64,000 nt of DNA from Planctomycetia bacterium. Lineage in GTDB: Bacteria > Planctomycetota > Brocadiia > Brocadiales > Brocadiaceae. Where the stretch lies: contig JABTVC010000001.1 in assembly GCA_015075005.1 (NCBI GenBank), positions 434,001 to 498,000 of the forward strand. Reading direction: 5' to 3'. The notes under the pieces were generated by a model that was not told the DNA's origin, made no database searches, and saw only the letters and a list, made by a program, of their open reading frames with translations. Shown in pieces: positions 16,719 to 52,695 of the stretch. A program made the position numbers and the translations under genes. Every line of letters begins with the position of its first letter. Position 1 is the first letter of the stretch.

Positions 16719-17573
16719 TTATCCAACCTTTCTTACGGTTTTAAATCTGCTAACGGTAAAAAGGCTTGTTGATACAATAAACATACCGATACTGATAATT
16801 TGAGCTACGGTAAAAAGATTAAAGAACATGGGGTTATCTCCCCGAAGTAGTTCCATGCAAAATCTTATAACAGAATAAATTATTCCAAAGAGAAGCAACA
16901 CCTCCCCGTTCCTCTTGCGAAACCGAAAAAATGCACTCAGGATAAAGAAAAGCACTACGTCAGAAAGAAACGAATACAATTGTGTGGGATGTATGGGGAG
17001 GGAGTGCAAGTCGGAAAGGTGAACCAGTCCAAGTTCATATTGATGAAGAAAAGCCGGGCTGCCGTCAACCATACCAGTTTTATCCAGCGTCCTCGGAAAC
17101 TGCATTGCCCATGGCACATGCGGGGCAATCTTTCCGAAACAGCAACCGTTCATGAAGCATCCGATACGGCCGAAACCGAGTCCTAGCGCAGCAGAAGGCG
17201 TGACGGCATCAATAATCTTTAAGAAGGGCAGATGATGCTTTTTGACATACAGATACAGCGTAACGATACCAGCAAAGAGCCCGCCGTAGTAAACTAACCC
17301 ACCTTCATAAATTTTAAAGATACTGAAGAGATTGTTCTTGTAATCATCGAAGAATTGAATAATGGAAAAGAGTCTTGCCCCTAAAATTCCTGCACACACC
17401 ATATAAATTCCAAGGTCTGTAATCTTATTAGGGTCAATACCTTCTTTCCTTGCCCGCCATCGCGCGATGCTGATAGCCACCAGAAAGGCGATCATTAGCA
17501 TGAACCCATATGAATAAATGGGTATGTGTCTCTGGAAAAAAGGAAGGGGAATTTCAAATAAGATTTTTCTCAT
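16719..17573 (-). CDS. lgt: Prolipoprotein diacylglyceryl transferase, left copy
   Basis: 284 residues starting [10 protein letters not shown]. It has seven membrane helices and the Lgt signature [17 protein letters not shown] (about residue 125) with the catalytic Arg, then H-P-T-Q-L-Y-S near residue 195. Lgt moves diacylglyceryl from phosphatidylglycerol to the lipobox Cys of prelipoproteins, the first step of lipoprotein maturation. The start at 17573 is set by comparison with the other copy at 51829, where it overlaps the panD stop by four bases; upstream in-frame residues belong to the broken panD. This copy is intact despite the decay around it. Its C-terminus (K-T-V-R-K-V-G) differs from the right copy. 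Confidence 0.92.
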   Translation of the reverse strand: MRKILFEIPLPFFQRHIPIYSYGFMLMIAFLVAISIARWRARKEGIDPNKITDLGIYMVCAGILGARLFSIIQFFDDYKNNLFSIFKIYEGGLVYYGGLFAGIVTLYLYVKKHHLPFLKIIDAVTPSAALGLGFGRIGCFMNGCCFGKIAPHVPWAMQFPRTLDKTGMVDGSPAFLHQYELGLVHLSDLHSLPIHPTQLYSFLSDVVLFFILSAFFRFRKRNGEVLLLFGIIYSVIRFCMELLRGDNPMFFNLFTVAQIISIGMFIVSTSLFTVSRFKTVRKVG

Positions 17574-17929
17574 AATGGGAGTGTCTTGATGAGCTTGTTG
17601 TTCCCATCTACCAGAATAATCCTGGGCTTCCAGCTTCTTGCCCTTTGTCTTCAACGAGGCAATAGGAAATGATGATTACCTTGTCGCCTGGCTGTGCCCA
17701 CCGTGCAGCGCCCATTTAAACAGATAACACCTGAATTACGCTCACCCTCAATCACATAGGTCTCCACCCGCGTTCCGTTATTAATATTGAGGACCCGTAC
17801 CCGTTCATAGTGCAAAATATCTACGGTGTCGAGAAGGACTTTGTCAATAGTGATACTCCCGTTGTAATTAAGATTGGTCTCCGTCACTGTTGCAGCATGA
17901 ATTTTCGCTTTGCACATCTCACGTAACAT
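17570..17929 (-). pseudogene. panD: Aspartate 1-decarboxylase, left copy, frameshifted
   Basis: The frame begins [11 protein letters not shown] and holds the self-cleavage site N-Y-N-G-S-I-T-I-D (Gly-Ser at about 24-25, where the pyruvoyl cofactor forms). It follows the right copy until G-V-I-C-L-N-G, then loses two bases in a G/C-rich run near 17705 and leaves frame. PanD makes beta-alanine for pantothenate and coenzyme A. The intact copy at 51470 presumably supplies the activity. The region after the shift still resembles the right copy at base level down to the lgt start. Confidence 0.85.
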
Positions 17930-18517
17930 TGTTTCTCCCAATAGTTTGATTGCATACAAATTTCATTTATTCATTTAAACGCGGATGAATTCAGAGTTTG
18001 TCTGTGAAACCTGAAAACGCCAAGAAGCGTATATATTCAGTTGGTGCAAATCCAACCCGCCAATTGACCGTTCGGGCGGTAGTGAAAGAGGCAGAAAACC
18101 TCACGGGAGGACGCAAACAGCGATGAATGCGTTCGAGTTCCCTGTAGCGAGCAGTCAGACTGTAGCGCAAGCGAACACGCAGGCTTCGTTACGCTAAAAA
18201 TACGATAGATGAGCCTCCCGGATTGGGCGAAATCTGTAATCGCATAAGTAGAAAGAGACAAACGGTAGAACTATGCGGTGTCGTCGGAGTTGAGAGTGAC
18301 GGTATGATTGTAAAAGGTATATATATGAACTTGGGAGGTCCTCTCATTGTTCAGGTTGATGACCGAAACGCATACTATAAGGGAAGCCGAAGGGTATAGC
18401 GGGATAATGAGAAGTCGGAGATGCCCATAGTAGTGAAGATGGTGAAGACAACATAACTTCACCGTAGCGAAGGGGCATTACTTCAGTTAGCGTTTACAAA
18501 GAAAGGAGGAAATTGTA

Positions 18518-19857
18518 TTGGGAGACCTGCAAGCAATACCGAAATCGCAAAAGAGCGATGAGGAAAGAGTCCGAGACTTTCAGCGTAAACTATATCGAAA
18601 AAAGCCAAACAGGAAGAAGGATTTTCGCTTTATGTATTGTATGACAAGGTGAGAATGTTGCATTTTTGAGAGAGGCGTACAAGCGTTGCAAAGCCAATGG
18701 AGGAAGCGCCGGGGCAGACGGGATTACATTTGAAGATGTGGAGTCATGCAGGGGTGGAGAAGCTTCTTGAGATAATAGAGGAACTGAAAACAAAACCACA
18801 CGAACCACAGCCGGTACTGAGTGTACATACCTAAAACCAACGGTAAAGACACGACCATTGGGAATCCCGTGATAAAAGACAGGGTAGTGCAGATGAGCGT
18901 AAAGCTTGTAATAGAGCCGATATTCGAAGCAGACTTTGAAGATAGCTCCTACGGATTCCGACCGAGGCGTTCAGCGGGCGATGCTGTGAAGAAAATCAAA
19001 GAAAACTGCGAGAAGGGAAGCAGAGGTATTTGATGCAGACCTTAGTTCTTATTTTGACACGATACCGCACAAGGAATTGTTACTGTTAATAGGGATGAGG
19101 ATAAGCGACAAGAACGTACTGCACCAGATAAAATGTGGTTAAAAGCACCGGTGGTAGAGGAAAGCAAACCAGGTGGCGGGAGGAAAATAAGATAGGAACA
19201 CCGCAGGAAGCGTAATATCACCATTATTAGCAAACATATATCTGCACATGCTCGACAAAGCAGTCAATAGAGAGAATGGGGTTTTCTATAAGTATGGGAT
19301 AACAATCATACGTTATATGCGGATGATTGGGTATTGATGGCAAAGCGAATACCTCGTGAAGCATTAGACTATCTCAACAGGTTGTTAAAGAAGTTAAAGC
19401 TGAGTCTTAATGAGGATAAGAGTAAAATAGTAAAGCTGAAGAAGAGAGCTTTGACTTTCTCGGACATACCATATCCTTCTCAGAAGATTTGTTTGGTAGG
19501 AAACACAAGAAATACTGGAACATAGAACCAAGCAAGAAATCACAAAAAGAAGGTTAGGGAAAGATAGGAAACCACCTCAAGAGCAATGGGCATAAAGCGG
19601 CGGAAAAAGTAGCTAATGAATTGAATGCAATAACAATAGGATGGATAAATTACTTTGCAATGAGGGAGTAACGTATCAAACAAGGCGAAAAGAGACCTAC
19701 GATATTATCTTTTCAAGAGATTGACGAGATATTATAAGAGGAAAGTCAGCGCAGGAGCAAGCTCTATAATCGAGGAGCGTTTAGGGAATTAGTCAATAGA
19801 TATGGGCTAATAGACCCAACAAAATATGTTCCTGTCAGACAACCCGTGAAAGCTTAA
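18518..19857 (+). pseudogene. ltrA: Group II intron reverse transcriptase/maturase, multiply frameshifted
   Basis: A TTG start at 18518 follows AAAGGAGG. Fragments in all three frames give the N-terminal R-E-A-Y-K-R-C-K-A-N-G-G-S-A-G-A-D-G, the P-K-x-N-G-K segment and I-G-N-P-V-I-K-D-R-V-V-Q (RT1-RT2), YGFRPRRSAGDA (RT3), a Y-A-D-D-W active-site block at about 19318-19330, the L-S-L-N-E-D-K-S-K-I block, and a C-terminus reaching the stop at 19855-19857 (P-V-R-Q-P-V-K-A). At least six indels are needed to restore it. An intact protein would promote splicing and retrohoming of the surrounding intron. Confidence 0.85.
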
Positions 19858-19870
19858 GAAGAAGACTGTC

Positions 19871-19904
19871 GGAAAGCCGTGTGGGAAAATCGCATGCACG
19901 GTTT
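19871..19904 (+). ncRNA. Group II intron domain V-like hairpin
   Basis: GGAAAGCCGTGTG pairs with CGCATGCACGGTTT around GGAAAAT, the size and shape of the catalytic domain V hairpin, 13 bases after the maturase stop. The catalytic triad appears as AGC near the 5' base of the stem. The structure fixes the plus-strand orientation of the intron. Confidence 0.7.
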
Positions 19905-20090
19905 GACGAGGGGGCAGATGATAAGTATATGGCGGAGATATGGTGGCACTGGCGGGAAACCAGCCAGCAAACAGAGAAACAAACTTCTGCCTAAGTTCTC
20001 GTCGTCTGTTTCTACTCTACCGTCCTATTTTAATCTTCAATAACCGTTTACAAATTTTATCTTAAAGCACCACAAAATCAATAGGAATCC

Positions 20091-20450
20091 TTATTGTCCT
20101 TGTGGCGGGTAAAAACTTCTGACGCATACCTTGACCAGGTCAACAATCTCCTCGTCAGTTAGCTTACCCTTATAGCCTGGCATCTTCTTTTTACCATTGG
20201 CCACGGATATAATTAATCTCGAATCAGAGACATTGTCTTGCCATTTGGTATTGGTAAAATTAGGAATTTTAAATATGAATCGACCAAACAAAGAACCCTT
20301 TCCGTTAACCCGATGACATTTTCGGCATTCCCTTTCATATACTGCCCAAATACCACCTTTTTCTGACAAAGCCGTCTGTTTAGAACTACATCCGTAAGAT
20401 ACCAGGACAAAAAAAACACAGACACCTATTATAGAAATAATTTTTTCCAT
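20091..20450 (-). CDS. Lipoprotein mono-heme cytochrome c, left copy
   Basis: 119 residues. The N-terminus is a lipoprotein signal with lipobox V-S-Y-G-C at about residues 17-21. One heme site CRKCH lies near 42, and the distal Met is probably in K-K-M-P-G-Y (about 88). The domain ends with the usual L-T-D-E-E-I-V-D-L-V helix. It would be a small outer- or inner-membrane-anchored periplasmic electron carrier. It is transcribed away from the phosphate porin from a shared 500-base intergenic region that is also conserved at the other arm. The copy at 50965-51322 is frameshifted, so this is probably the working one. Confidence 0.85.
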   Translation of the reverse strand: MEKIISIIGVCVFFVLVSYGCSSKQTALSEKGGIWAVYERECRKCHRVNGKGSLFGRFIFKIPNFTNTKWQDNVSDSRLIISVANGKKKMPGYKGKLTDEEIVDLVKVCVRSFYPPQGQ

Positions 20451-20951: not shown

Positions 20952-22391
20952 ATGCAGGGGAAATGGTGTAAGTATGTTATATCGTCAGTAATTATATTGT
21001 GCGTTACATACATAAGCAATATGGGACAAGATACATACGCCCAGCAGTCAGCACAGCAATCTGAAGTATCAGGAGGTGCTACAGAAGATTTAAAATGGCA
21101 ATTGAAGCAGATGGAGGAGTCGCTTGCAAAACAGCAAGAACAAATGAAGCAGATAGTGGAATTAGCAACAAGACAGCAAGAGCAAATACAAGTTTTAAGA
21201 AACCGCATAGATACCACGAGTCCTCAGGCCACAACGATTAAAACAGAGGAGATCAAATCTACGCTGGCCAAGGAAGAAGATATCAAACAGGTTGTTGATG
21301 ACTATCTTTCCACGGACGAGGCACGGAAAAAGATGGGACTTGGTTTATCCTACGTTACGGCCGAATACACTCCAGATGATGAGAAATATGCACTAGGTTT
21401 GAAATCTGCCGACGGTAACTTTTCATTAAACACGGGTGCAAGGATGCAGTTCAGATATACGTTCGAGGATAATGACGAAGATTTTGGGGAAGTCGATACT
21501 CAGGATGTTACCATTCGTCGGGCGAGGGTTTACTTTGGCGGGAATATCTACAGTAAGATGGTGCATTATTATGTTGAGGCTGATTTTGATAACTTCACCG
21601 CTGGCATGAGAGATTTTTACGTATATTTTACTCCTCTTGAAGATTTGAACGCCAAGATTGGATATTTTAAAGTGCCCTTTAACAGACAGAGGATGGCATC
21701 GTCTGCAAAGCTTCTTCTTCAGGATAGATCCATTGCCAGTGAGGAATTTGATCAGGATCGGGATTATGGTGCAGATATCTATGGAAAGCCCTTTGAGGGC
21801 TATATGGAATACCATGCCGCTCTGTTCCAGGGAGCAGGCGAGAAGAATATTAAAGGGAATACAGACAATACACTTATGTATGTCCTGAATGTCAGGTACA
21901 ATCCGTTTGGAAAATATGATTACTACGATGAAACCGATGTGAAGTATTCTGATAAACTCAAGGCAACGGTTGGGGCATCCGTGGTATTTAACGCAAAGGA
22001 CGGAGACAAAAAACTTGAGAATACCGATACGATAGACGGAGTCGTTGATCTTGGTGTAAAGTACAGAGGCTTATCGTGGAACAATGAGTATTACGTGAGG
22101 ACTGAAGATCCTGAAGATGGCGGCGACTCGATTGATTCCGATGGATTCTTTACCCAGGCAGGATATTTCGTAATACCAAAAAAGCTTGAAGTTGCTGCTC
22201 GTTATTCCATGCTTGATCCCAACACCGATGTTTCAGACGATCTTCAAAGGGAATATACCGGGGGTATAAACTATTACTTCCGTGCCCATCGTTCCAAGAT
22301 ACAGGCAGATTTCGGACATTTTGTGACCAATACAAAAACGCATGATAAACAGGAGGAAAAGATCAGGATACAGTATCAAATTATATTTTAA
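20952..22391 (+). CDS. Phosphate-selective porin, OprO/OprP family, left copy
   Basis: 479 residues: signal peptide ending near A-Y-A-Q-Q, a periplasmic coiled coil (about 40-100, repeated K-Q-Q-E-Q), then a 16-strand-type OprO/OprP barrel (T-I-R-R-A-R-V-Y-F-G-G, Y-Y-V-E-A-D-F-D, K-I-G-Y-F-K-V-P-F near 235) ending in Phe. An AAGGAGG site lies 8 bases before the ATG. Such porins pass phosphate or other anions across the outer membrane. It begins the left pst set and is preceded by a Pho-box-like array. Its leader peptide and coiled coil resemble those of the porin at 48995-50434, but the barrels are only distantly related. Confidence 0.85.
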   Translation: MQGKWCKYVISSVIILCVTYISNMGQDTYAQQSAQQSEVSGGATEDLKWQLKQMEESLAKQQEQMKQIVELATRQQEQIQVLRNRIDTTSPQATTIKTEEIKSTLAKEEDIKQVVDDYLSTDEARKKMGLGLSYVTAEYTPDDEKYALGLKSADGNFSLNTGARMQFRYTFEDNDEDFGEVDTQDVTIRRARVYFGGNIYSKMVHYYVEADFDNFTAGMRDFYVYFTPLEDLNAKIGYFKVPFNRQRMASSAKLLLQDRSIASEEFDQDRDYGADIYGKPFEGYMEYHAALFQGAGEKNIKGNTDNTLMYVLNVRYNPFGKYDYYDETDVKYSDKLKATVGASVVFNAKDGDKKLENTDTIDGVVDLGVKYRGLSWNNEYYVRTEDPEDGGDSIDSDGFFTQAGYFVIPKKLEVAARYSMLDPNTDVSDDLQREYTGGINYYFRAHRSKIQADFGHFVTNTKTHDKQEEKIRIQYQIIF

Positions 22392-22517
22392 AATCGGATG
22401 AGACACTTAAAGAATTTGACAGCCTTCATTCCAAAAAATAAGTCGACTTCCATAATAAATTTGAGTAAGATACTGGCCACGCATGTGGCAGGAAAAAATG
22501 AAAGGAGAAACGTGTCT

Positions 22518-23488
22518 ATGGTGAGAAAAACGTGGTTTTCAATAACGTTTTTTAGTTTTAGTCTGGCGGTATTCACTATTGCAGGCGGAGCAGTCATGGC
22601 TGACACAAATATAAAGCCTTATGCCAAAGTGGGTGGGGTTTCAGGAAACCTGAATATTATCGGCTCTGATACCATGAACAACATCATGACTTACTGGGCT
22701 GAGGGATTTAATAGGCTTTACCCGAATGTGAAGATTCAGATAGAAGGCAAGGGTTCTACCACCGCACCACCGGCCCTAATCTCAGGCACAGCACAGATAG
22801 GACCCATGAGCAGGGCAATGAAGCCTACAGAAATTGATGCCTTCGAAAAAAAATATGGCTATAAACCCACCGCAATAAGGACGGCCCTGGATGCCCTGGC
22901 AGTGTATGTAAACAAGGACAATCCTCTCAAGGGTCTAAGTATGCCCCAGGCTGATGCCATTTTTTCAAAAACCGGAAGGCAAGTATAAAGAGGACATTAA
23001 TACCTGGGGACAACTTGGCTTAACAGGCGAATGGTCAACCCGTCCCATAAGTCTCTATGGCCGTAATTCCGCATCGGGTACCTATGGTTATTTCAAGGAA
23101 CATGCCCTTTATAAGGGAGACTTCAAAGATATCGTAAAAGAGCAGCCAGGTTCTGCCTCTGTTATACAAGGCGTAGCTGCGGACAGATATGCCCTGGGTT
23201 ACAGTGGTATTGGTTATAAGACCTCTGGAGTTCGCACCGTGCCTCTTTCATTTAAAGAAGGAGAGCCTTATAAAGAGGCTGAAATGAAAAGTGTAATAAA
23301 TGGTTCTTATCCGCTGGCAAGGTTTCTTTGTGTATATATTAATAAAAACCAGGTCAGCCGCTCGATCCTCTGGTCAGGAGTTTGTAAAAATATATCCTGA
23401 GCAAAGAAGGTCAGGAAGTGGTTGTAAGGATGGATTTTTGCCTGTACCGGCATCGGTTGTCAAAGAGGAACTGAAGAAAGTAGAATAG
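22518..23488 (+). pseudogene. pstS: Phosphate-binding protein PstS, left copy, frameshifted
   Basis: ATG at 22518 (or GTG at 22512) follows AAAGGAG and opens a signal peptide. Conserved phosphate-site segments are present: [18 protein letters not shown], and R-N-S-A-S-G-T-Y. The frame breaks near 22970 (a C and an A fewer than in the right copy within AAAAACCGGAAGG) and again near 23350-23400. Restored length is about 320 residues. PstS delivers phosphate to the PstCA channel from the periplasm. The stop lies three bases before the pstC start. Confidence 0.88.
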
Positions 23489-23491: not shown

Positions 23492-25812
23492 ATGAGAAGT
23501 TTGAGGAGAAGAAAGTTTACAGACAGAGCCAGCCACTGGGTAATTACCCTCAGTGGAGCGGCTACCGTCTTTGTTGTACTTGTCTTGTTTTTTCTTTATC
23601 TTCCTGGAGGTTTATCCACTCCTCAAAGGGGCTAAGGTATCAAAAGAAAATACGTACGCATTACATGGCAAGGCGGTCTCCATAGGAGTGGGCGATCATC
23701 AGGTGGTTGCCTTTGCCATGTATAACGACGGCACGATAGAGTTTCTTTCTCTTTCACATGGAGAGATTTTAAAAAGATACACTATAGCAAGTCTTAACGG
23801 TTCTTCCATAGTATCCGTTAGTAAAGATCGTGACCGTCTTGCTTTTGGGAACAAATGACGGAGGATTTTAACGGTATCTGTCAACTTTTCTGAGTCGTTT
23901 GACAATGGAAAAGGACGATTTTCCCTGAGATATCAGAAGCAGAAACTGTACAAGCTAACAATGAGGGAAAAGGATCGCTTGTATTACATCCAGGGAGATG
24001 GAAGTGCGACAGTTACAGCGGTCCATACCGTGGATGGCAGGTTAATACTCATATCTTCGGAGGTCGAAAGGACGCTCTTTGGTGAAGGAGAAAAGAAGGA
24101 AATCAAGAAGGATATTACCGGTCTCATAGTACAACATAGCCTCGACCAATCCTCACTTAAATCATACGAGGACAAGATTACCCCATTTGCAAAGAAGGGA
24201 AATGGGGAGGGCAGGAAAAACACGAACGTACCGGAACACGTGTAGCAAGTACCTCAATACTACATTCGTCAGTGCAGAAAGATGAAATCGAGATAACCTC
24301 GATGGCACTCGACCTTTTATGGAAAATCTTTATGTTGGAACTTCTTCAGGCGAGATATTTCATATAAATGTGCAGGATAGGGAAAACCCATTTCTTGCAG
24401 AAATGGTAAGGGTGTCTGACAAGGCGGTCACTGCCTTGGGTTTTTACTGGGGACATCTCCCTTGTCGTTGGAGACCAATATGGCAGCGTGAATATCTGGA
24501 TGCAGGTAAGGGATGCGGTATCGCCTTCCGGTTGGGCCCTGAAAAGATTCATACCCTGAAATCGCATAACGCACCGGTTATTGCTATTGCTCCCTCAATG
24601 AGAGATACAAGGGCTTTGTGACAGCGGCAACAGACGGAACGATACACCTCAGCCACGCAACTTGAACAGACACGTTTAAACCTCGAGACAAAATCTCTGC
24701 CTGCAGCGCTTGCCTTTTCACCAAAGGCCAATGGTATTCTTGCGGCTGATTCTCATGGCCATTTATTCCAGTGGAACATTTCAAACCCGCACCCGGAAAT
24801 TACCTTAAAACCCTGTTCGGGCCGGTATGGTATGAGGGTTATGAAAACCGAATTTGTCTGGCAGTCCACGGAGGGACTGATGACTTTGAACCAAAGTTGA
24901 GCCTTGTGCCACTAATCTTTGGCACTATCAAGGGGTACGGTATACGCACTGATCATCGCTGTACCTGTTAGCATCCTTGCCGCGCTCTACACATCCCAGT
25001 TTCTTCATAATTCCTTGAAAATAATAAAACCGGTTATCGAGATCATGGCGGCGCTTCCCAGTCATCCTGGGTTTCCTTGCCGGCCTGTGGCTTGCGCCGT
25101 TGCTGGAAAGGATATTTCCTGCAATCATTATCATGCCGTTTTTTATTCTGCTCTCTATTGTAATAGCTCTTTCGATCTGAAGATTCTGCCTGCCTTTGGA
25201 AAAGGCCGGTACAGGCATGGGATAGAGGCATTGTTTTTGATACCTTTATCATCGGCGCTGTATTTGTGTCTATCCAGCTTGGGGTGTCTATGAGTCCTCC
25301 TTCTTAACGGGGATTACAGGGCATGGTTTGCAAATGTTCTTGGCTTAGAGTACGATCAAAGGAATGCTGTTCTCGTGGGCATTGCCATGGGGTTTGCCGT
25401 AATACCCTTATCTATACCATATCAGAAGATGCCATGAGCAATGTCCCCAACAGCCTTCGCTCGGCCTCGCTGGCGCTTGGAGCAACTCCATGGCAGACGG
25501 CTGTCAGGATCATTCTCCCAACTGCAAGCCTGGAATTTTTCAGCCATTATGATTGGTTTTGGAAGGGTGGTGGGAGAGACGATGATCGTTCTTATGGCCA
25601 CCGGAATACACCCATCATAGACTGGAATTTGTTTAATGGCTTTCGTGCGCTTTCAGCAAACATAGCAGTAGAAATACCCGAAGCACCTATTGAGGAACGC
25701 TTTACCGGGTGCTTTTTCTCGCTGCACTGCTTCTTTTATAACAACCTTCATTGTTAATACCTTTGCCGAAATGGTAAGGCACAGGATGAAGTTACGGTAT
25801 AGTAAACTATGA
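23492..25812 (+). pseudogene. pstC: Phosphate permease PstC, left copy, many small indels
   Basis: Comparison with 45298-47748 shows the full gene from ATG at 23492 to TGA at 25810-25812, but split into about ten frames. Before about 23930 the copies differ by many substitutions, and this copy lacks the 105-base palindromic insert of the right copy. After that point they are almost identical except for one- and two-base gaps or insertions, often but not always in homopolymers (for example a G missing in the run near 24450, CT missing near 24663, CG missing near 25061). The encoded protein would have an N-terminal membrane helix, a periplasmic propeller-like domain and a six-helix permease. 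Confidence 0.88.
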
Positions 25813-26895
25813 AAAAATTTATTCGGACCGGGAATCCTTATATATGGTTGACGGCAGGAACTCCTGACCATCTGCCTCCTGATGATTTGCGGATTAGTTG
25901 TACCATTATGGTAAATGGGTTTGGCATATTCTGGCCTCGTAAGGTCGTCAGGGTTACGCTTTACGATGGTACCGTAGCTTTAGAGAAATTGCAAACGGGA
26001 GTCTATCCCCACCAGAAGGGCCTTTTCGGACGAAATTGAAGATAGGGAACAGGGACGTAAATGGCCTTGACTTCACCTGGATTGATGATGCAGACATTGT
26101 GTCCTGGGAATATCCTGCTGATACCCTGGTTTTGAGAGGCGTGAATGGGGTAATATGTATGGTTTTTTAAAAGGTTTGAGGCAGGACGGCGCCGTCAAAC
26201 CCCAGAGACTGAAGTCATGATGCCTTTGCTGGAAAAAGCCAAACACTTTTTAAACAGATACGGCACGTTGAAAAAAAGGAAATTGGTAATATAAACTACC
26301 AGATGGAAAATGTCGTCTTGAGTCGAAGCATCTCGAGAGGTTGCAACCATCTGAAAAAATTCAAAATAAACTTGCAACGGTAAAACAAGGATGAATAACC
26401 TTGAAAGGAAATATCGGGAAAAGGAAGATACTCTTACCGCCCTTTATACAACGGCGAGAGAAAAAGAGGTTGTTGTGCTTCTTGCCGATGGGAGAGAAAA
26501 ATCATGCCCGTTTTTCAGATCATCCGCGTCTATGCACCAAATAAAATGGGGTTTTTGCCAAAATGAGTTTTTATATAGCAAAGTTCTGGGAATTTATATG
26601 GGAGAACTGAGAGAGGCCAACACGGAGGGAGGGTCTTCCCGCAATTTTGGAACGGTTATGCTGGTGCTGATCATGAGTATTGCGGTTGTCCCACTTGGTG
26701 TGTTGACCGCGGTATATCTCAAAGAATATGCCCGCGATAGTTTTATTGCCAGACTGGTTCGGATATCCGTGAGTAATCTTGCAGGCGTTCCTTCAATTGT
26801 CTTTGGGGTATTCGGTCTTGGGTTTTTCATATATTTTATTGGCGGGGTATAGACAATCTGTTTTTTCCGGATGCCTTACCAACCCCTACATTTGG
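25809..26895 (+). pseudogene. pstA: Phosphate permease PstA, left copy, indel-ridden and truncated by an IS
   Basis: The ATG overlaps the pstC stop by four bases, as in the right copy. At least five indels occur in the first 250 bases against the right copy, with few or no substitutions. The gene stops at 26895, where the terminal repeat of an ISL3-type element begins; the corresponding point in the right copy is 44199. The conserved permease half after the F-F-I-Y-F-I-G-G helix is therefore missing, as are pstB and phoU on this arm. Confidence 0.88.
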
Positions 26896-41321: not shown

Positions 41322-41984
41322 GGTTCTTCTCCAAATCAGATAGTCCAGAACAACGGTCAAATAGCGCTGTCCCTTCTTAACAGAGATTTCGTCTACTGCC
41401 AGTATGCGAAGATGCTGATAGTCAGTCTGCGCGTATTGTCGTTCCAGAAAAACTTATCGATTGCTTTTACTGTTTTCCAGTTCATTCCAAAATGTTTTGC
41501 AACTTCGGTAATGGTTAACATTTTACACAGTTCGTGAATATACGCTGCTAAACGATGCGTAACACGACTGTAAGGTTGAAAAACCTAAGTCTTCAACTAC
41601 GATTCGATTGCATGACTCACAGGCTATCTTACGATACGAACAATTTATCCATACGCGAACAGAACCAAGATTCATATCCCGCAAAGCTCGTTTGTCGTGA
41701 CGATAAATGCGCTGTGCTTTGCTGCTGCCACACATGACATATTGGGTGAAATCGTTCATCGGGTACTGCAGGGCTAAGCTGGGATAACTCAGCATCAGAA
41801 AAACAGTTTGTTTTAGTAATTCTTACCCGCTGAAAAGGAAATAGGGTAATATACTTAACGTGGACATTGCTGGGCCTCCTGTAAATAAGTTATATATCGG
41901 TATAGGAAAACACAAATGTCCACTCTTTTCAATGATTTAATGAAATTTCTCCTCAATTTCTATTGACTAATTTGGAGAAGAACC
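41322..41984 (-). mobile_element. Internally deleted ISL3-type derivative with matching ends
   Basis: On the minus strand it begins with GGTTCTTCTCCAAATTAG, reads colinearly with the first 640 bases of the element at 26896 (transposase N-terminus, D-E-I-S-V-K-K-G), then jumps at C-T-A-T-C-T-G straight into ATTTGGAGAAGAACC. Both ends therefore carry the terminal repeat, although two thirds of the transposase is missing. The element is 663 bases and looks like a non-autonomous form. It is downstream of phoU. Confidence 0.85.
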
Positions 41985-42890: not shown

Positions 42891-43670
42891 CTAACCAAAC
42901 CTTCCAGTAATATAGTCCTCCGTCTGTTTTTCGCGAGGATTTGTGAATATCTCAGTGGTGATGTCATATTCAATAAGTTTACCCATCATAAAGAAACCTG
43001 TGTGATCTGATATCCTGCCTGCCTGCTGCATGTTATGCGTAACGATAATAACGGTGTAATCTTTTTTCAGTTCGACCAGCATATCCTCTATCTTGGCTGT
43101 GGCGATTGGATCGAGGGCGGAACACGGTTCGTCAAGCAGTATAATCTCAGGTTCTGTGGCTATTGCCCTGGCAATACAAATCCGCTGTTGCTGACCTCCG
43201 GAAAGATCAAGGGCATTTACACGGAGTCTATCCTTCACTTCATCCCAAAGTGCGGCCTTTTTCAGGGCGTTTTCGCAAATATCGTCCAGGGTATTTTTTT
43301 TATTGATACCCTGAACACGGGGGCCGTATACCACATTTTCGTAAATGGTTTTTGGAAATGGATTCGGCTTCTGAAAGACCATGCCAACCTTTTTTCTGAG
43401 CTCTGTAATATCAACGGTATGGGCATAGATGTCCTGTCCGTCTATCTTAATACTCCCTTCGATCGTCACATTATCTATGATGTCGTTCATCCGGTTTAAG
43501 CACCGAATCAAGGTAGACTTCCCGCACCCGGACGGTCCGATAAAGGCGGTTATCTTTTTTTTGGAAATATCAAGATTTATCCCTTTCAGCGCCTTTGTCT
43601 TGCCATAATAAAGGTTCAGATCGTTGATAGTAACTATCGGCTCAGTGACTTTTATTTTCTCATATTCCAT
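42891..43670 (-). CDS. pstB: Phosphate import ATP-binding protein PstB
   Basis: 259 residues: Walker [10 protein letters not shown] (about 43-51), Q-loop V-F-Q-K-P-N-P-F-P (about 98), signature L-S-G-G-Q-Q-Q-R (about 158) and Walker [14 protein letters not shown] (about 178). It drives the PstC-PstA channel. It follows pstA at 32 bases. Only one copy exists in the window. Confidence 0.96.
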
Positions 43671-43702
43671 AATAGTTCACCTTAGGGTATTCACAGAATT
43701 TT

Positions 43703-45301
43703 TTACATCGACCCTGTACTATACCATTTTTTCAGCTTATTTCTCACTACGATAGCCGTAAGATTCAGCACAAGCACCGTAAAAAGCAAAGCAAGGGTTG
43801 TGGCATAAACCATGGGAATGGCTGCCTCTACATTGGGCGATTGGAATCCGACATCATAGATATGAAATCCCAGGTGCATGAATTTTCTTTCCAAATGGAT
43901 AAAAGGGAAGTGACCATCCATCGGAAGTGACGGCGCCAGCTTAACGACGCCCGTAATCATGAGGGGCGCAACCTCTCCGGCGGCCCTTGCCATGGCCAGA
44001 ATTGTGCCGGTAAGTATACCCGGGGTTGCCTGGGGAAGCACTACCCTCCACAGGGTTTCAATCTTTGTGGCGCCGAGCGCATAAGAACCCTCTCGCAGGG
44101 ATATGGGAACGGCAGACAATCCCTCTTCCGTTGCTACGACGACTACCGGTACCGTCATGAGCGCCAGGGTAAGCGACGCCCACAGAATACCACCCGTTCC
44201 AAATGTAGGGGTTGGTAAGGCATCCGGAAAAAACAGATTGTCTATACCCCCGCCAATAAAATATATGAAAAACCCAAGACCGAATACCCCAAAGACAATT
44301 GAAGGAACGCCTGCAAGATTACTCACGGATATCCGAACCAGTCTGGCAATAAAACTATCGCGGGCATATTCTTTGAGATATACCGCGGTCAACACACCAA
44401 GTGGGACAACCGCAATACTCATGATCAGCACCAGCATAACCGTTCCAAAAATTGCGGGGAAGACCCCTCCCTCCGTGTTGGCCTCTCTCGGTTCTCCCCA
44501 TATAAATTCCCAGAACTTTGCTATATAAAAACTCATTTTGGCAAAAAACCCCATTTTATTTGGTGCATAGACGCGGATGATCTGAAAAACGGGCATGATT
44601 TTTTCTCTCCCATCGGCAAGAAGCACAACAACCTCTTTTTCTCTCGCCGTTGTATAAAGGGCGGTAAGAGTATCTTCCTTTTCCCGATATTTCCTTTCAA
44701 GGTTATTCATCCTTGTTTTTACCGTTGCAAGTTTATTTTGAATTTTTTCAGATGGTTGCAACCTCTCGAGATGCTTCGACTCAAGACGACATTTTTCCAT
44801 CTGGTAGTTTATATTACCAATTTCCTTTTTTTCAACGTGCCGTATCTGTTTAAAAAGTGTTTGGCTTTTTTCCAGCAAAGGCATCATGACTTCCAGTCTC
44901 TGGGGTTTGACGGCGCCGTCCTGCCTCAAACCTTTTAAAAAGCCATACATATTACCCCATTCACGCCTCTCAAAAACCAGGGTATCAGCAGGATATTCCC
45001 AGGACACAATGTCTGCATCATCAATCCAGGTGAAGTCAAGGCCATTTACGTCCCTGTTCCCTATCTTCAATTTCGTCCGAAAGGAGCCCTTCTGGTGGGG
45101 GATAGACTCCCGTTTTGCAATTTCTCCTAAAGCTACGGTACCATCGTAAAGCGTAACCCTGACGACCTTACGAGGCCAGAATATGCCAAACCCATTTACC
45201 ATAATGAGTACAACTAATCCGCAAATCATCAGGAGGCAGATGGTCAGAGTTCCTGCCGTCAACCATATATAAGGATTCCCGGTCCGAATAAATTTTTTCA
45301 T
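43703..45301 (-). CDS. pstA: Phosphate permease PstA with large periplasmic coiled-coil domain
   Basis: 532 residues, about 240 more than a typical PstA. After an N-terminal helix (14-40) comes a periplasmic domain (about 45-270) containing a long charged coiled coil (about 150-215). The ABC permease part (about 285-530) has S-A-V-P-I-S-L-R-E-G-S-Y-A-L-G-A-T as its EAA-type loop. The ATG overlaps the pstC stop by four bases. The extra domain is also present in the left copy, where it is broken. Confidence 0.93.
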   Translation of the reverse strand: MKKFIRTGNPYIWLTAGTLTICLLMICGLVVLIMVNGFGIFWPRKVVRVTLYDGTVALGEIAKRESIPHQKGSFRTKLKIGNRDVNGLDFTWIDDADIVSWEYPADTLVFERREWGNMYGFLKGLRQDGAVKPQRLEVMMPLLEKSQTLFKQIRHVEKKEIGNINYQMEKCRLESKHLERLQPSEKIQNKLATVKTRMNNLERKYREKEDTLTALYTTAREKEVVVLLADGREKIMPVFQIIRVYAPNKMGFFAKMSFYIAKFWEFIWGEPREANTEGGVFPAIFGTVMLVLIMSIAVVPLGVLTAVYLKEYARDSFIARLVRISVSNLAGVPSIVFGVFGLGFFIYFIGGGIDNLFFPDALPTPTFGTGGILWASLTLALMTVPVVVVATEEGLSAVPISLREGSYALGATKIETLWRVVLPQATPGILTGTILAMARAAGEVAPLMITGVVKLAPSLPMDGHFPFIHLERKFMHLGFHIYDVGFQSPNVEAAIPMVYATTLALLFTVLVLNLTAIVVRNKLKKWYSTGSM

Positions 45302-47748
45302 AGTTTACTATACCGTAACTTCATCCTGTGCCTTACCATTTCGGCAAAGGTATTAACAATGAAGGTTGTTATAAAAAGAAGCAGTGCAGCGAGAAAAAGC
45401 ACCCGGTAAAGCGTTCCTCCAATAGGTGCTTCGGGTATTTCTACTGCTATGTTTGCTGAAAGCGCACGAAAGCCATTAAACAAATTCCAGTCTATGATGG
45501 GTGTATTTCCGGTGGCCATAAGAACGATCATCGTCTCTCCCACCACCCTTCCAAAACCAATCATAATGGCTGAAAAAATTCCCGGGCTTGCAGTTGGGAG
45601 AATGATCCTGACAGCCGTCTGCCATGGAGTTGCTCCAAGCGCCAGCGAGGCCGAGCGAAGGCTGTTGGGGACATTGCTCATGGCATCTTCTGATATGGTA
45701 TAGATAAGGGGTATTACGGCAAACCCCATGGCAATGCCCACGAGAACAGCATTCCTTTGATCGTACTCTAAGCCAAGAACATTTGCAAACCATGCCCTGT
45801 AATCCCCGTTAAGAAGGAGGGACTCATAGACACCCCCAAGCTGGATAGACACAAATACAGCGCCGATGATAAAAGGTATCAAAAACAATGCCTCTATCCC
45901 ATGCCTGTACCGGCCTTTTCCAAAGGCAGGCAGAATCTTCCAGATCGAAAGAGCTATTACAATAGAGAGCAGAATAAAAAACGGCATGATAATGATTGCA
46001 GGAAATATCCTTTCCAGCAACGGCGCAAGCCACAGGCCGGCAAGGAAACCCAGGATGACGCTGGGAAGCGCCGCCATGATCTCGATAACCGGTTTTATTA
46101 TTTTCAAGGAATTATGAAGAAACTGGGATGTGTAGAGCGCGGCAAGGATGCTAACAGGTACAGCGATGATCAGTGCGTATACCGTACCCTTGATAGTGCC
46201 AAAGATTAGTGGCACAAGGCTCAACTTTGGTTCAAAGTCATCAGTCCCTCCCGTGGACTGCCAGACAAATTCCGGTTTTTCATAACCCTCATACCATACC
46301 GGCCCGAACAGGGTTTTTAAGGTAATTTCCGGGTGCGGGTTTGAAATGTTCCACTGGAATAAATGGCCATGAGAATCAGCCGCAAGAATACCATTGGCCT
46401 TTGGTGAAAAGGCAAGCGCTGCAGGCAGAGATTTTGTCTCGAGGTTTAAACGTGTCTGTTCAGAAGTTGCGTGGCTGAGGTGTATCGTTCCGTCTGTTGC
46501 CGCTGTCACAAAGCCCTTGTCTCTCATTGAGGGAGCAATAGCAATAACCGGTGCGTTATGCGATTTCAGGGTATGAATCTTTTTCAGGGCCCAACCGGAA
46601 GGCGATACCGCATCCCTTACCTGCATCCAGATATTCACGCTGCCATATTGGTCTCCAACGACAAGGGAGATGTCCCCCAGTAAAAAACCCAAGGCAGTGA
46701 CCGCCTTGTCAGACACCCTTACCATTTCTGCAAGAAATGGGTTTTCCCTGTCCTGCACATTTATATGAAATATCTCGCCTGAAGAAGTTCCAACATAAAG
46801 ATTTTCCATAAAAAGGTCGAGTGCCATCGAGGTTATCTCGATTTCATCTTTCTGCACTGACGAATGTAGTATTGAGGTACTTGCTACACGTGTTCCGGTA
46901 CGTTCGTGTTTTTCCTGCCCTCCCCCATTTCCCTTCTTTGCAAATGGGGTAATCTTGTCCTCGTATGATTTAAGTGAGGATTGGTCGAGGCTATGTTGTA
47001 CTATGAGACCGGTAATATCCTTCTTGATTTCCTTCTTTTCTCCTTCACCAAAGAGCGTCCTTTCGACCTCCGAAGATATGAGTATTAACCTGCCATCCAC
47101 GGTATGGACCGCTGTAACTGTCGCACTTCCATCTCCCCTGGATGTAATACAAGCGATCCCTTTTCCCTCATTGTTAGCTTGTACAGTTTCTGCTTCTGAT
47201 ATCTCAGGGAAAATCGTCCTTTTCCCATTGTCAAACGACTCAGAAAAGTTGACAGATACCGTTAAAATCCTCCCGTCATTTGTTCCCAAAGCAATGCGAT
47301 TATTATCTTTGCTGACTGATGTTATAAAATTACGCTGCAGGCTTGTTTTTTGGGAAAAAGTTTCCACCTCCCCCTTATCCCCCCTTTGCGAAGGGGCGTG
47401 GGGGAGTAAATTCGTTACATTTTGTTGTGCTACGGAAGAACCATTAAGGCCTGCTATCTCACACCTCTTTAAAACCTCTCCATTTGAGAGAGAAATAAAC
47501 TCTATGATGCCATTATTATAGAGGGCAAAAGCGACATCCTGACGATCATCTTCTCCTACAGAGACTGCCTTACCCTGTAAGGCATACGTATTTTCTTTTG
47601 ATATCTTAGCCCCTGTGAGGAGTGGATAAACCTCCAGAAAGATAAAGAGAAACAAGGCAAGTACAACAAAGACGGTAGCTGCTCCACCGAGGGTAATTAA
47701 CCAGAAGCTGGCCCTGTCTGCAAACTTTCTTCTCTTCAAACTTCTCAT
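45298..47748 (-). CDS. pstC: Phosphate permease PstC with N-terminal periplasmic propeller-like domain
   Basis: 816 residues, more than twice the length of Escherichia coli PstC. One helix (about 18-42) precedes a periplasmic region (about 45-500) with repeated beta segments of WD40/propeller style (N-R-I-A-L-G-T-N-D-G-R-I, Y-V-G-T-S-S-G-E-I-F-H-I, V-V-G-D-Q-Y-G-S-V-N-I-W, F-V-T-A-A-T-D-G-T-I-H-L, I-L-A-A-D-S-H-G-H-L-F-Q-W). The permease (about 510-816) has the EAA loop S-N-V-P-N-S-L-R-S-A-S-L-A-L-G-A. It starts three bases after pstS. A 35-residue stretch near 110 comes from a palindromic DNA insert. Confidence 0.93.
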   Translation of the reverse strand: MRSLKRRKFADRASFWLITLGGAATVFVVLALFLFIFLEVYPLLTGAKISKENTYALQGKAVSVGEDDRQDVAFALYNNGIIEFISLSNGEVLKRCEIAGLNGSSVAQQNVTNLLPHAPSQRGDKGEVETFSQKTSLQRNFITSVSKDNNRIALGTNDGRILTVSVNFSESFDNGKRTIFPEISEAETVQANNEGKGIACITSRGDGSATVTAVHTVDGRLILISSEVERTLFGEGEKKEIKKDITGLIVQHSLDQSSLKSYEDKITPFAKKGNGGGQEKHERTGTRVASTSILHSSVQKDEIEITSMALDLFMENLYVGTSSGEIFHINVQDRENPFLAEMVRVSDKAVTALGFLLGDISLVVGDQYGSVNIWMQVRDAVSPSGWALKKIHTLKSHNAPVIAIAPSMRDKGFVTAATDGTIHLSHATSEQTRLNLETKSLPAALAFSPKANGILAADSHGHLFQWNISNPHPEITLKTLFGPVWYEGYEKPEFVWQSTGGTDDFEPKLSLVPLIFGTIKGTVYALIIAVPVSILAALYTSQFLHNSLKIIKPVIEIMAALPSVILGFLAGLWLAPLLERIFPAIIIMPFFILLSIVIALSIWKILPAFGKGRYRHGIEALFLIPFIIGAVFVSIQLGGVYESLLLNGDYRAWFANVLGLEYDQRNAVLVGIAMGFAVIPLIYTISEDAMSNVPNSLRSASLALGATPWQTAVRIILPTASPGIFSAIMIGFGRVVGETMIVLMATGNTPIIDWNLFNGFRALSANIAVEIPEAPIGGTLYRVLFLAALLLFITTFIVNTFAEMVRHRMKLRYSKL
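47320..47428 (-). repeat. In-frame palindromic insert within pstC
   Basis: About 105 bases absent from the left pstC copy. The core at 47368-47406 is CTCCCCC, CCCCTT, GCG, AAGGGG, GGGGAG in nested inverted order. It adds about 35 residues (including L-L-P-H-A-P-S-Q-R-G-D-K-G-E) without breaking the frame. The C-run/G-run design matches the dispersed hairpin at 8079-8102. Confidence 0.7.
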
Positions 47749-47751: not shown

Positions 47752-48727
47752 TTATTCTATTTTCTTCAGTTCCTCTTCGGCAACCGATGCCGATAAAGGT
47801 AAAATTCCATCCTTTACAATCACATCCTGGCCTTCTTTGCTCAGGATATATTTAACAAACTCCCTGACCAGAGGGTCGGGTGGCTGACCCGGTTTTTTAT
47901 TAATATATATATAAAGAAACCTTGCCAGTGGATAAGAACCATTTAGTACATTTTGCATTTCAGCCTCTTTATAAGGCTCTCTCTTCCCTAAATGAAAGAG
48001 GTATGGTATGCACACCAGAGGTCTTGTAACCTATACCACTGTAACCCAGGGCATATCGGTCCGCTGCTACGCCTTGTATAACAGAGGCAGAACCTGGCTG
48101 CTCTTTTACAGTATCTTTGAAGTCTCCCTTATAAAGGGCACGCTCTTTGAAATAACCATAGGTACCTGAGGCGGAATTACGGCCATAGAGACTTACCGGG
48201 CGAGTTGCCCATTCACCTGTTAAGCCAAGTTGTCCCCAGGCAGTAATATCTTCTTTATACTTGCCTTTCCGGGTTTTTGAAAAAATGGCATCAACCTGAG
48301 GCAAACTTAAACACTTGAGAGGATTGTCCTTGTTTACATACACTGCCAGGGCATCCAGGGCTGTCTTTATTTCTGTGGGTTTATAGCCATATTTCTTTTC
48401 AAAGGCATCAATTTCTGTAGGCTTCATTGCCCTGCTCATTGGCCCTATCTGGGCTGTTCCTGAAATGAGAGAGGGTGGTGCGGTGGTAGAACCTTTGCCT
48501 TCTATCTGTACCTTTACATTCGGATACACCTTGTTAAACCCCTCGGCCCAGTAAGTCATGAGGTTGTTCATGGTATCAGAACCGATGCTATTCAGGTTTC
48601 CCGAAACCCCACCCACTTTGGCATACAACTTAACCTTCTGGTCAACATGGACAGTTTCTCCAGCTGTAGCAGCACTGGCCAGACCAAGACAAAAAATTGA
48701 CATCAAAAGCCACGATTTTTTCATCAT
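47752..48727 (-). pseudogene. pstS: Phosphate-binding protein PstS, right copy, one frameshift
   Basis: Signal peptide, [18 protein letters not shown], and R-N-S-A-S-G-T-Y all lie in the first frame (48727 to about 47990). There, G-A-A-G-A-G-A-G-A-G has one more base than the left copy, and the rest (E-P-Y-K-E-A-E-M to E-E-E-L-K-K-I-E) is in another frame. AAGAGGA precedes the ATG. As both pstS copies are shifted, either the cell relies on a PstS elsewhere or these are consensus errors. Confidence 0.9.
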
Positions 48728-48994: not shown

Positions 48995-50434
48995 CTAGAA
49001 AAATATATTAAATCTCAGTCCAACAAGGTCTGCGGTTCCATCCTCTCCACTGAAATCCGCATCAGCATGGACATAGTTCAACATTACCCGCATATTGGGA
49101 TTTAGGTACCAATTTACTCCCACTGTCCCATCCTGAAGGCGTCCTCCGCTAATATCTTCATCTTCTAAATCAACAGCTGAATAGCGTGCTGCAAGCTCAA
49201 TTGCGCCTATGCTCTCGCCCCATTTAAAATTTTTCTTCGGTTTGACTATATCAAAGCTACCATTTTTCGTGTTATATCTCCTATTTTCTCCTGTCAGGAA
49301 ATAACTCGCATAAAAGTAAAATCCAGAAAAATCAGGGTCTGAACCGCCACCATCTTCAAGATCAACCTTTGCAAATACGTATTCTGTTTGAAATGAAAGC
49401 GGACCATACACAATGGCCAATTCCGGGCCAAAAAGATGCACCGCTTCAGCAGCAATAGTGCCTGTATCTACAAACTTATCTGCCATATGCATTTCCGGTG
49501 TTTGACTAAAACGAATCTTGTTCTCAAATGCATTCTGATAACTATAGCCAAAACCCGTGTGCAAGAGCCTTCTCCCTTCTTCTTCATACCATGGCAACCC
49601 AGTCAGCCTTCCGCTAAAACTATAACCTCCTTCTGTGGTTGAATCCCCCTCACTGTCACCAAAATCGTTCGAATTACGGAAGACACCACCAGCCCATGTC
49701 ATGCGTTTATCCATAGCAGCATTGTAAAGCATCATTCCCGTGTTTCTTGCAGGCGAAAAAACATTCGGTAGTGCACGTTCCATAAAGGTAATATAATTAT
49801 TTGAGGTAAGTGTTTCTAAGCTAAAAGGTTCTTTAAAATGCCCTACCCTAAAATTTCCTGCAACAGGGATTTCTTTCAATTCTACAAAGACATCGGTAAA
49901 ACTAGGCCTCCCGCCGCCTGCAAAATCATACTCCATCTTGAAGTCAATATTGTTGTAAATTGTGCCGGAGATATACAGCCGAGCCCAGCGAAATTCTGCG
50001 CCATCCACTTGATCGCCTATAGTATCTCTTATTTCGTTATCCTCCCTGAACCACCCCCAATCCTGCCCAATCCTGCCGCCAATTTTAAGTTTAAAGTTTT
50101 TGTTGATCGTATCAAAATTAAGCCCTTCCTTCCAATAAACCCGGAAATCTTCCGGCTCTTTTGCAGTTGATCCACTTTTTTTGACCTCCTCAACGCTGGC
50201 ATTCGTAGTATTTAAGCGATTATTTATGGCCTGTATTTGCTCTTGTTGCCTCTTAATACCCTCTTCCAACAGCTTCAACTGCCATTTCAAATCCTCCGAC
50301 TCCGCCTTAGTTTCTGATGATTCTCCTTGTTGTATAGCCTGTTGGGCAAGCACACATTGCAACATACCACCTGTATATACACCCCCTAATACTATTACCG
50401 ACGAGAAAACATATTTACACCAGGTACTATGCAT
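48995..50434 (-). CDS. Phosphate-selective porin, OprO/OprP family, right copy
   Basis: 479 residues, the same length as the left porin. The signal peptide and coiled coil (about 1-75; E-D-L-K-W-Q-L-K is shared) are clearly related to the left copy; the barrel is a different OprP branch (F-R-W-A-R-L-Y-I-S-G-T-I, V-G-H-F-K-E-P-F near 215, R-N-T-G-M-M near 255, ending N-I-F-F). GAGGAGGG lies 7 bases before the ATG. It heads the working pst operon with a Pho-box-like array upstream, and a pentanucleotide tract lies 48 bases from the start codon. Confidence 0.85.
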   Translation of the reverse strand: MHSTWCKYVFSSVIVLGGVYTGGMLQCVLAQQAIQQGESSETKAESEDLKWQLKLLEEGIKRQQEQIQAINNRLNTTNASVEEVKKSGSTAKEPEDFRVYWKEGLNFDTINKNFKLKIGGRIGQDWGWFREDNEIRDTIGDQVDGAEFRWARLYISGTIYNNIDFKMEYDFAGGGRPSFTDVFVELKEIPVAGNFRVGHFKEPFSLETLTSNNYITFMERALPNVFSPARNTGMMLYNAAMDKRMTWAGGVFRNSNDFGDSEGDSTTEGGYSFSGRLTGLPWYEEEGRRLLHTGFGYSYQNAFENKIRFSQTPEMHMADKFVDTGTIAAEAVHLFGPELAIVYGPLSFQTEYVFAKVDLEDGGGSDPDFSGFYFYASYFLTGENRRYNTKNGSFDIVKPKKNFKWGESIGAIELAARYSAVDLEDEDISGGRLQDGTVGVNWYLNPNMRVMLNYVHADADFSGEDGTADLVGLRFNIFF

Positions 50435-50756: not shown

Positions 50757-50964
50757 GATGAAACATTGTCTGTTATAGTGAGAGAAATGCCTTTGTTGTT
50801 TTATTTGGCATATGTTATAGCCTCAACAACATAGCAATTTCAAAATAATTCAAAATTTTATAAACTAATCAAATGAAAAGATAAGAGACTTGAATATATG
50901 AGTTTTTATGGTAAACTCTTAAAATCAATTGAAATCAAACGAGAAAACATCAAAGGAGATGAAG

Positions 50965-51322
50965 ATGAAAAATTTATTTATATGATAGGTATCTGTGTTT
51001 TTGTGCCCTGGTATCTTACGGGTGTAATCATAAACAGATGGCCTTATCAGAAAAAGGGGGTATTTGGGCTGTATATGACCGGGAATGCCGAAAATGTCAC
51101 CAGGCGAACGGAAAGGGTTCTTTTATCGGCCGATTTATATTTAAAATCCCTAATTTTACCAACACCAAATGGCAAGACAATGTCTCTGATTCGAGATTAA
51201 TTATAAACGTGGCCAATGGTAAAAAGAAGATGCCGGGCTATAAGGGTAAGTTAACTGACGAGGAGATTGTTGATCTGGTCAAGGTATGCGTCAGAAGTTT
51301 TTACCCGCCACAATCACAATAA
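50965..51322 (+). pseudogene. Lipoprotein mono-heme cytochrome c, right copy, frameshifted
   Basis: ATG at 50965 follows CAAAGGAG, but the frame stops after six codons. Compared with the left copy, small indels occur near 50975 and in a T-run near 51000 (five T instead of eight). From the lipobox S-Y-G-C on, the frame is open to 51322, with heme site CRKCH and K-K-M-P-G-Y. The mature protein would be nearly the same as the left copy. An internal ATG at 51038 cannot give an exported protein. Confidence 0.8.
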
Positions 51323-51469
51323 GGATTCATATTGATTTTGCGGTACTTTTAGATAAAATTTGTAACCAGTGATTAAGATTAAAACAGGACGCAGGTTTTC
51401 ACGGATAAACCCTGCGTTCATCCGTGTCTAAACAAAATTTGTATGCAATCAAGACTATTGGGATAAACA

Positions 51470-51832
51470 ATGTTACGTGAGATGTGCAAAGCGAAGATTC
51501 ATGCCGCAACAGTGACGGAGACCAATCTTAATTACAACGGGAGTATCACGATTGATAAAGCCCTTCTTGACGCTGTGGATATCTTACCCTATGAACGGGT
51601 ACAGGTCCTCAATATTAACAACGGGACGCGGGTGGAAACCTATATAATTGAAGGCGAACGTGATTCAGGTGTTATCTGCTTAAACGGGGCCGCTGCACGG
51701 TGGGCACAACCAGGCGACAAGGTCATCATTGTTTCTTATTGCCTCGTGGAAGATAAAGACGCAAGAAACTGGAAACCAAAGATTATTCTGGTAGATGGGA
51801 ACAACAATCTCATCAAAACCCTCCCATTATGA
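51470..51832 (+). CDS. panD: Aspartate 1-decarboxylase, right copy
   Basis: 120 residues, complete. N-Y-N-G-S-I-T-I-D holds the Gly-Ser self-processing site, and N-G-A-A-A-R lies near 73, as in active PanD. It yields beta-alanine from aspartate for pantothenate. The ATG follows GGGATAAACA; the stop overlaps lgt by four bases. The left copy is frameshifted, so this is the functional gene. Confidence 0.95.
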
Positions 51833-52695
51833 GAAAAATCTTATTCGAAATTCCCCTTCCTTTTTTCCAAAGACACATACCCATTTATTCGTACGGATTC
51901 ATGCTAATGGTCGCCTTTTTGGTGGCTATTAGTATCGCACGATGGCGGGCAAGGAAAGAAGGTATTGATCCTAATAAGATTACCGACCTCGGAATCTATA
52001 TGGTATGTGCAGGAATTTTAGGGGCAAGACTTTTTTTCATTATCCAATTTTTTGACGATTACAAGAACAATCTCTTCAGCATCTTTAAAGTTTATGAAGG
52101 CGGATTAGTCTACTACGGCGGGCTCTTTGCTGGTATCATTACCCTGTATCTGTATACAAAAAAACATCATCTGCCCTTCTTAAAGATTATTGATATCATC
52201 ACGCCTTCTGCTGCGCTAGGACTCGGTTTCGGTCGTATCGGATGCTTTCTGAACGGTTGCTGTTTCGGAAAGATTGCTCCGCATGTACCCTGGGCAATGC
52301 AGTTTCCGAGGACGCTGGACAAAACGGGTATGGTTAATGGCAGCCCGGCATTTCTTCATCAGTATGAACTCGGCCTGGTTCACCTTTCCGACCTGCACAC
52401 CCTCCCCATACATCCCACACAATTGTATTCGTTTCTTTCTGACGTTGCGCTTTTTTTTATCCTGAGTGCGTTTTTTCGGTTTCGCAAGAGGAGCGGTGAG
52501 GTGTTACTTCTCTTTGGAATACTCTATTCCATTATAAGGTTTTGCATGGAATTACTCCGGGGAGATAACTCTTTGTTTTTTAACTTTTTTACCGTAGCTC
52601 AAATTATCAGCATCGTCATGTTTGTTGTATCAACAAGCCTTTTTACCCTTAGCAGATTTAAGACCGTAATACAGCAGAACCAGGCCATCGAATAA
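51829..52695 (+). CDS. lgt: Prolipoprotein diacylglyceryl transferase, right copy
   Basis: 288 residues with the [17 protein letters not shown] signature and H-P-T-Q-L-Y-S. It is over 90 per cent identical to the left copy; most changes are conservative and neither is broken. Two complete lgt genes in one genome are unusual. It ends 7 bases from the stop of tex, which converges on it. Confidence 0.94.

Follow-up and report, generated by a model that had tools for sequence, protein, structure and literature searches.

In the 64,000-nucleotide stretch studied here (positions 434,001 to 498,000 of contig JABTVC010000001.1, Planctomycetia bacterium, assembly GCA_015075005.1; hereafter the window), a gene cluster running from lgt through panD, a cytochrome c gene, a porin gene and pstS to pstC and pstA is present twice in mirror orientation, and we judge it fairly probable that this arrangement arose by duplication, gene conversion and rearrangement overlaid by errors, so that no switch function is needed. 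This Candidatus Brocadia chromosome would have carried two homologous lgt-panD-cyt-porin-pstS-pstC-pstA-pstB-phoU clusters, with cluster B (the left arm) occupying the older site and cluster A (the right arm) being an extra copy with the other porin class, which arose by duplication or came from a close relative. Gene conversion between A and B probably homogenised about 4.3 kb, from pstC into the beginning of pstB, and a later rearrangement with breakpoints in B pstA, at an ISL3 element, and in B pstB would have inverted about 87 kb, removing pstB-phoU from B and turning A from direct to mirror orientation. The left frames appear to be shattered mainly by uncorrected long-read homopolymer errors in repeats.

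The contig that holds the window (C1) measures 1.63 Mb and belongs to a 3.89-Mb genome in 22 contigs (G000), with a completeness of 93.0 and a contamination figure of 3.31%. The closest named PstC relatives are Candidatus Brocadia records, mostly metagenome-assembled genomes, and G000 is probably one too.

Two mirrored clusters and a near-identical block

The preliminary description had reported an inverted duplication with the same seven-gene order in opposite orientation, and comparison of the window with itself confirmed it: the left arm (16.7-26.9 kb) reads lgt-panD-cytochrome c-porin-pstS-pstC-pstA, the right arm (44.2-52.7 kb) repeats this order in mirror image, and the core between them comprises 17,303 bases. 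The inverted matches form a mosaic, with 89% identity over lgt/panD (16733-18013/52669-51392), 87% over the cytochrome region (20021-20648/51391-50765), 74% and 78% over two short stretches (20750-20905/50763-50599 and 20935-20998/50451-50388), 84% over pstS (22409-23811/48823-47430) and 98% over pstC-pstA (23813-26895/47320-44199). Aligning the arms base by base, as had been proposed, upheld near-identity for pstC-pstA alone (about 23860-26895), where an inverted repeat of about 3.04 kb, 99.8% identical with indels excluded (7 substitutions), bounds the 17.3-kb core; the rest of the arms is diverged, as the lgt/panD and pstS values show, and the two porins share only 26% protein identity.

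On the left, lgt (16719-17654, minus strand) appears as an open reading frame (ORF) of 311 aa with an extended start, because the upstream panD (17651-17959, minus strand) is frameshifted. A 2.0-kb group II intron-type element (18014-20021) lies between panD and the cytochrome c gene (20091-20450, minus strand, 119 aa); the plus strand then carries a 479-aa porin gene (20952-22391), pstS (22398-23400), divided into two ORFs by small deletions, and most of pstC with the 5' part of pstA (23860-26895), whose frames are shattered by homopolymer deletions. The left pstA is without its final ~500 bases.

The right arm runs on beyond pstA into pstB and phoU, so that phoU (42081-42746), pstB (42891-43670), pstA (43703-45301, 532 aa, unbroken), pstC (45298-47748, 816 aa, unbroken), pstS (47969-48727, with a C-terminal frameshift) and a 479-aa Porin_O_P porin gene (48995-50434) all lie on the minus strand. 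They are followed on the plus strand by the cytochrome c region (50850-51391), by panD (51470-51832) and lgt (51829-52695), both unbroken, and by the neighbour tex (52703-54844). Gene names are backed by the Pfam families LGT, Asp_decarbox, cytochrome c (left), Porin_O_P (right), PBP_like_2 and BPD_transp_1, and an Rfam scan of 16.7-54.0 kb found no family at its gathering score. The 816-aa PstC has a long N-terminal part with WD40/beta-propeller matches under the Pfam cut-offs, and matches covering most of this protein come from Brocadiaceae, Scalindua, Nitrospirae and some Gammaproteobacteria.

Evidence for a probable gene conversion

The genes missing from the left arm were found 87 kb away from it, where a B-type pstB-phoU pair lies in reverse orientation at C1:546.6-548.2 kb, 88% identical to the right arm over the stretch and 95% over pstB alone. 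Comparing this displaced pstB with the right copy gave no substitutions in the bins about 43402-43501 and 43002-43251, and the two diverge from about 43001 on. Gene conversion leaves a limited block of near-identity between homologous sequences that are diverged on either side, as is seen here, and the sequences suggest that a tract of ~4.3 kb, reaching from pstC into the start of pstB, probably formed while the left cluster was whole. In trees, the left and right copies are sisters for lgt/panD (100/98) and cytochrome c (92/95), as are the displaced and right pstB (100/98); the left pstS groups with the relative G003 (90/90), and G005 is the partner of the displaced phoU (99/98).

Three observations weigh against this interpretation. 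The tract is broken by 10 substitutions in pstB (about 43252-43401), the counterpart of right-arm positions 43620-44198 is now missing from B so that the tract is without data there, and the trees conflict on the A/B split, so that A may be foreign or stem from a second strain.

Position of the clusters in relatives and a putative inversion

Matches to lgt/panD occur once in each of ten congeners and twice in G000. The left flank together with lgt was found again in G005, G003 and G004, and in G003 and G004 the tex gene, which adjoins the right lgt here, is separated from lgt, which is why we infer that the left arm occupies the older site and that the right arm is the extra copy. The opposite assignment, with the right arm as the older position, was rejected from the neighbours in G003, G004 and G005. 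The G003 sequence beside tex was also searched for the pre-insertion site of the right arm, and its sole long match lay on C12.

In G009, one continuous cluster extends from lgt to phoU and is followed by a second ABC-importer operon. Here, this cluster and operon map to C1:450.7-460.9 kb and, reversed, to 548.2-536.9 kb, with the second operon at C1:540.2-543.9 kb next to the displaced pstB-phoU, which is itself joined to a copy of X, the gene for a 513-aa PMT_2-like protein described below. This pattern suggests that ~87 kb (460.9-548.2 kb), the right arm included, was inverted; with the inversion undone, the two clusters would stand in direct orientation. Comparison of gene order in relatives, another check proposed at the outset, thus yielded the continuous cluster of G009, and L051 likewise has lgt-panD-cyt near porin-pst, but linkage of lgt to pst is not general in the genus. 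In G002 the two lie ~640 kb apart, in G008 they are on separate contigs, and among 24 loci surveyed (L029-L052) L051 is the only one with lgt near pst, all of which counts against the favoured explanation.

The left pstA ends at a full-length ISL3-family insertion sequence (26896-28214), which matches a shortened copy on the other side of the core at 96% (26896-27536/41984-41337). The latter is a 663-base, internally deleted derivative on the minus strand (about 41322-41984) that retains both terminal repeats and abuts the phoU side of the right cluster. Matching 8-bp flanks border 11 of the 12 other ISL3 copies displayed (the exception being L105), whereas the window's full-length copy has unlike flanks and no 8-bp target-site duplication. 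Simple insertion of ISL3 into pstA was rejected for this reason, and the junction is probably recombinant. At the other inversion breakpoint no insertion sequence was found. The synteny upstream of X in G005, which was tried for this second breakpoint, failed to support it and maps to C12. A further weakness concerns four joins, at 23.86, 26.9 and 28.2 kb and at C1:548.2 kb, which fall in error-rich sequence and could be misjoins.

These joins bring in the most serious rival, an assembly chimera in which either the left stretch pstC-pstA-IS-X or the right arm as a whole was misjoined between loci or between co-occurring Brocadia strains. The contamination figure would suit such a misjoin, as would the A-B distance over lgt/panD, which at 0.11 changes per site equals that between the left copy and G003. 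The joins of the right arm itself, however, lie in clean sequence, and the tex and methyltransferase genes beside it match G003 at 91-92%. Moreover, the left and right lgt/panD are sisters, A-shared sequence at two places 87 kb apart fits one past tract, and the two breakpoints look reciprocal. Considering both sides, we regard a chimera as rather unlikely. For duplication, conversion and inversion, the order of events and the existence of both breakpoints in the cell are our reconstruction from these patterns.

The second operon holds at C1:542913-543926 (L104:4914-5927) a gene for a 337-aa fusion of an ABC-transporter ATPase and a TusA sulfurtransferase, whose DNA is 86% conserved in G009.

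Broken reading frames in the left arm

On the ORF map, the left arm at first reads as a genuine pseudogene copy collapsing after duplication: its frames are broken, its pstA is truncated and its pstB-phoU is gone. Such decay sits poorly with the error spectrum and with the controls from mobile elements. Relative to the right arm, the left block 23860-26895 shows 39 deletions, 33 of them in homopolymers, 3 insertions and 7 substitutions, a ratio of indels to substitutions of six to one. Another aligner, starting from 23813, gave 34 substitutions, of which 18 fall in the initial 47 columns that precede the tract, and 39 indels, 36 being left deletions. As controls, comparisons with G003 yielded 324 substitutions and 1 indel for the right pstC-pstA, 165 and 0 for tex, and 84 and 1 for the left lgt. 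Aligned bins at 24-29 kb carry 9-16 frameshifting deletions per kb against relatives, compared with 0-0.6 per kb at 42-46 kb. A single bin of the right arm (50 kb) is likewise high, a value that comes from just 552 aligned bases.

Multicopy elements behave alike, with one unbroken copy each. Among the 20 full-length ISL3 copies listed, the window's included, a single one keeps a 309-aa open frame, and in the other 19 no frame exceeds 152 aa; compared with the unbroken copy, 18 of them show 377 deletion events (248 in homopolymers), 59 insertions and 244 substitutions, so that some copies must truly have diverged as well. One of the four genome copies of the group II intron-type element (L187) has an unbroken 458-aa frame; it encodes a reverse transcriptase/maturase, and its score against the group II intron model exceeds the gathering threshold. 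X is shattered in the window (28216-30086, plus strand), and the genome's other copy, 98% identical at G000:C1:548226-550120, has an unbroken 513-aa ORF. In addition, the substitutions of left-type panD, pstS, pstB and phoU keep a third-codon-position bias.

Because of the indel spectrum, the multicopy-element controls and the retained third-position bias, we read the left frames as broken mostly by technical errors, and real decay as improbable. The excess of homopolymer deletions over substitutions, together with one clean copy per repeat, is the picture expected of unpolished long-read repeats, and the error spectrum thus points to uncorrected long-read homopolymer errors in repeated sequence, the platform itself being deduced from that spectrum. 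The Polypolish paper describes how reads align preferentially to an error-free repeat instance while the other instance keeps its errors (PMC8812927).

Some results fit this interpretation less well, and the first of them also favours decay. The error-rich B pstS (22.97-23.43 kb) and B phoU carry deletions and yet are not near-identical repeats, their third-position bias is a little lower than in A (54-64% against 64-69% for pstS, 57-64% against 67-73% for phoU), and the intron pair is less extreme, with 27 indels to 17 substitutions. In the right arm, pstS is frameshifted near 47.98 kb relative to four of four relatives and the left copy, and cytochrome c near its signal peptide (about 51.0 kb) relative to six of six comparators; both frameshifts lie in otherwise clean sequence and may be real or residual errors.

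More generally, frameshifted 'pseudogene' arms in assemblies can be patches of errors clustered in repeats, and a simple test would combine the presence of one clean copy per repeat family with the ratio of indels to substitutions against a relative. Two other regions, C1:508-516 kb (L211) and C1:544-556 kb (L104), have few or no open frames of at least 200 aa and are perhaps more error patches.

Porin classes and the proposed switch

The left porin gave no Pfam match at 0.01, and it shares 66% identity with a protein of a relative, itself a match to Porin_O_P. Across the 24 surveyed loci, the porin ahead of pstS is nearer to the left class in 14 and nearer to the right class in three (L039, L042 and L049, with 82%, 60% and 49% protein identity); the class is ambiguous in two (L046, L047), and five gave no porin match (L031, L037, L041, L045, L050), some of which begin too near to reveal a porin. 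From these sequences, the porin slot is seen to have exchanged classes among Brocadiaceae and Scalindua lineages, with G000 carrying both, the left one being the commoner class at this slot. A literature search found no paper that combined Brocadia, pstB and phosphate.

The preliminary description had seen in the arms a possible reversible switch, in which the inverted pstC-pstA blocks recombine and the core flips, so that alternating porin/PstS front ends are joined to one working pstA-pstB-phoU. The geometry is right: a 3.04-kb inverted repeat bounds the segment, and its inversion would complete the left pstA and place pstB-phoU behind the left porin and PstS. The alternation of two porin classes in one operon position across anammox lineages also agrees with a switch, as does the right pstS being frameshifted where the left pstS agrees with relatives; this same frameshift makes the claim of one working transporter uncertain. 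Against it, Pfam found no site-specific recombinase among 13 core ORFs, a scan that did not take in all smaller or broken ORFs or all of the rest of the window, and each of the ten congeners has a single lgt/panD match. The core does contain ISL3 transposase sequence, and a dedicated recombinase is unnecessary if RecA-type recombination acts. For inverted cassettes in Salmonella, one study (PMC8262849) gives a recombination average of 2.6e-6 per cell per generation, with the inversion carried by 5 of 59 isolates checked. For a switch, this would be rare.

Gene conversion accounts better for the near-identity of the pstC-pstA blocks, and the apparent decay of the left arm is largely an error signature, so the switch, though allowed by the geometry of the sequence, is unsupported, and we consider it very improbable. 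Hardly more credit is due to a weaker form, in which the two porin classes, each with its own PstS, are kept and an occasional inversion of the 17-kb core swaps the class on pstA-pstB-phoU as standing variation in phosphate uptake. If the alternative orientation exists, it would be a real instance of porin swapping ahead of one transporter. With duplication, conversion and rearrangement as the favoured reading, what the window offers is an anammox example of an operon that was duplicated and underwent gene conversion, its porin slot being one that has exchanged classes in Brocadiaceae and Scalindua.

Other features of the window

Between the arms, bioA-, bioD- and thiC-like genes lie on the plus strand (35736-39467; Pfam Aminotran_3, AAA_26 and ThiC_Rad_SAM). 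Upstream of the left arm, 14501-14696 and about 14908-15060 are short dispersed repeats of ~190 and ~150 bases, of which the 11 Brocadia genomes searched contain many copies.

Comparison with known systems

Inversion switches acting through recombination between inverted repeats are known as a class, and the window resembles them in that its inverted homologous segments could exchange front ends. It differs in showing no sign of alternation, and the 13 core ORFs scanned revealed no dedicated machinery. A second comparison is with gene conversion between duplicated bacterial genes, of which the tuf genes are an example (PMC8262849); in both cases two chromosomal homologues share a bounded near-identical tract in diverged flanks, whereas here a multi-gene cluster is concerned, apparently split later by an inversion. 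As to the broken frames, the errors left in repeats once short reads have been used for polishing, as treated in the Polypolish paper (PMC8812927), are alike in being mostly homopolymeric indels with one error-free repeat instance, and the present case differs in that platform and pipeline are here deduced from the error spectrum alone. Finally, the porin-pstS-pstC-pstA-pstB-phoU operon of Brocadiaceae and Scalindua has the same order as here in most surveyed loci that hold the whole stretch, and G000 departs from it in that the operon is duplicated, each copy with another porin class.

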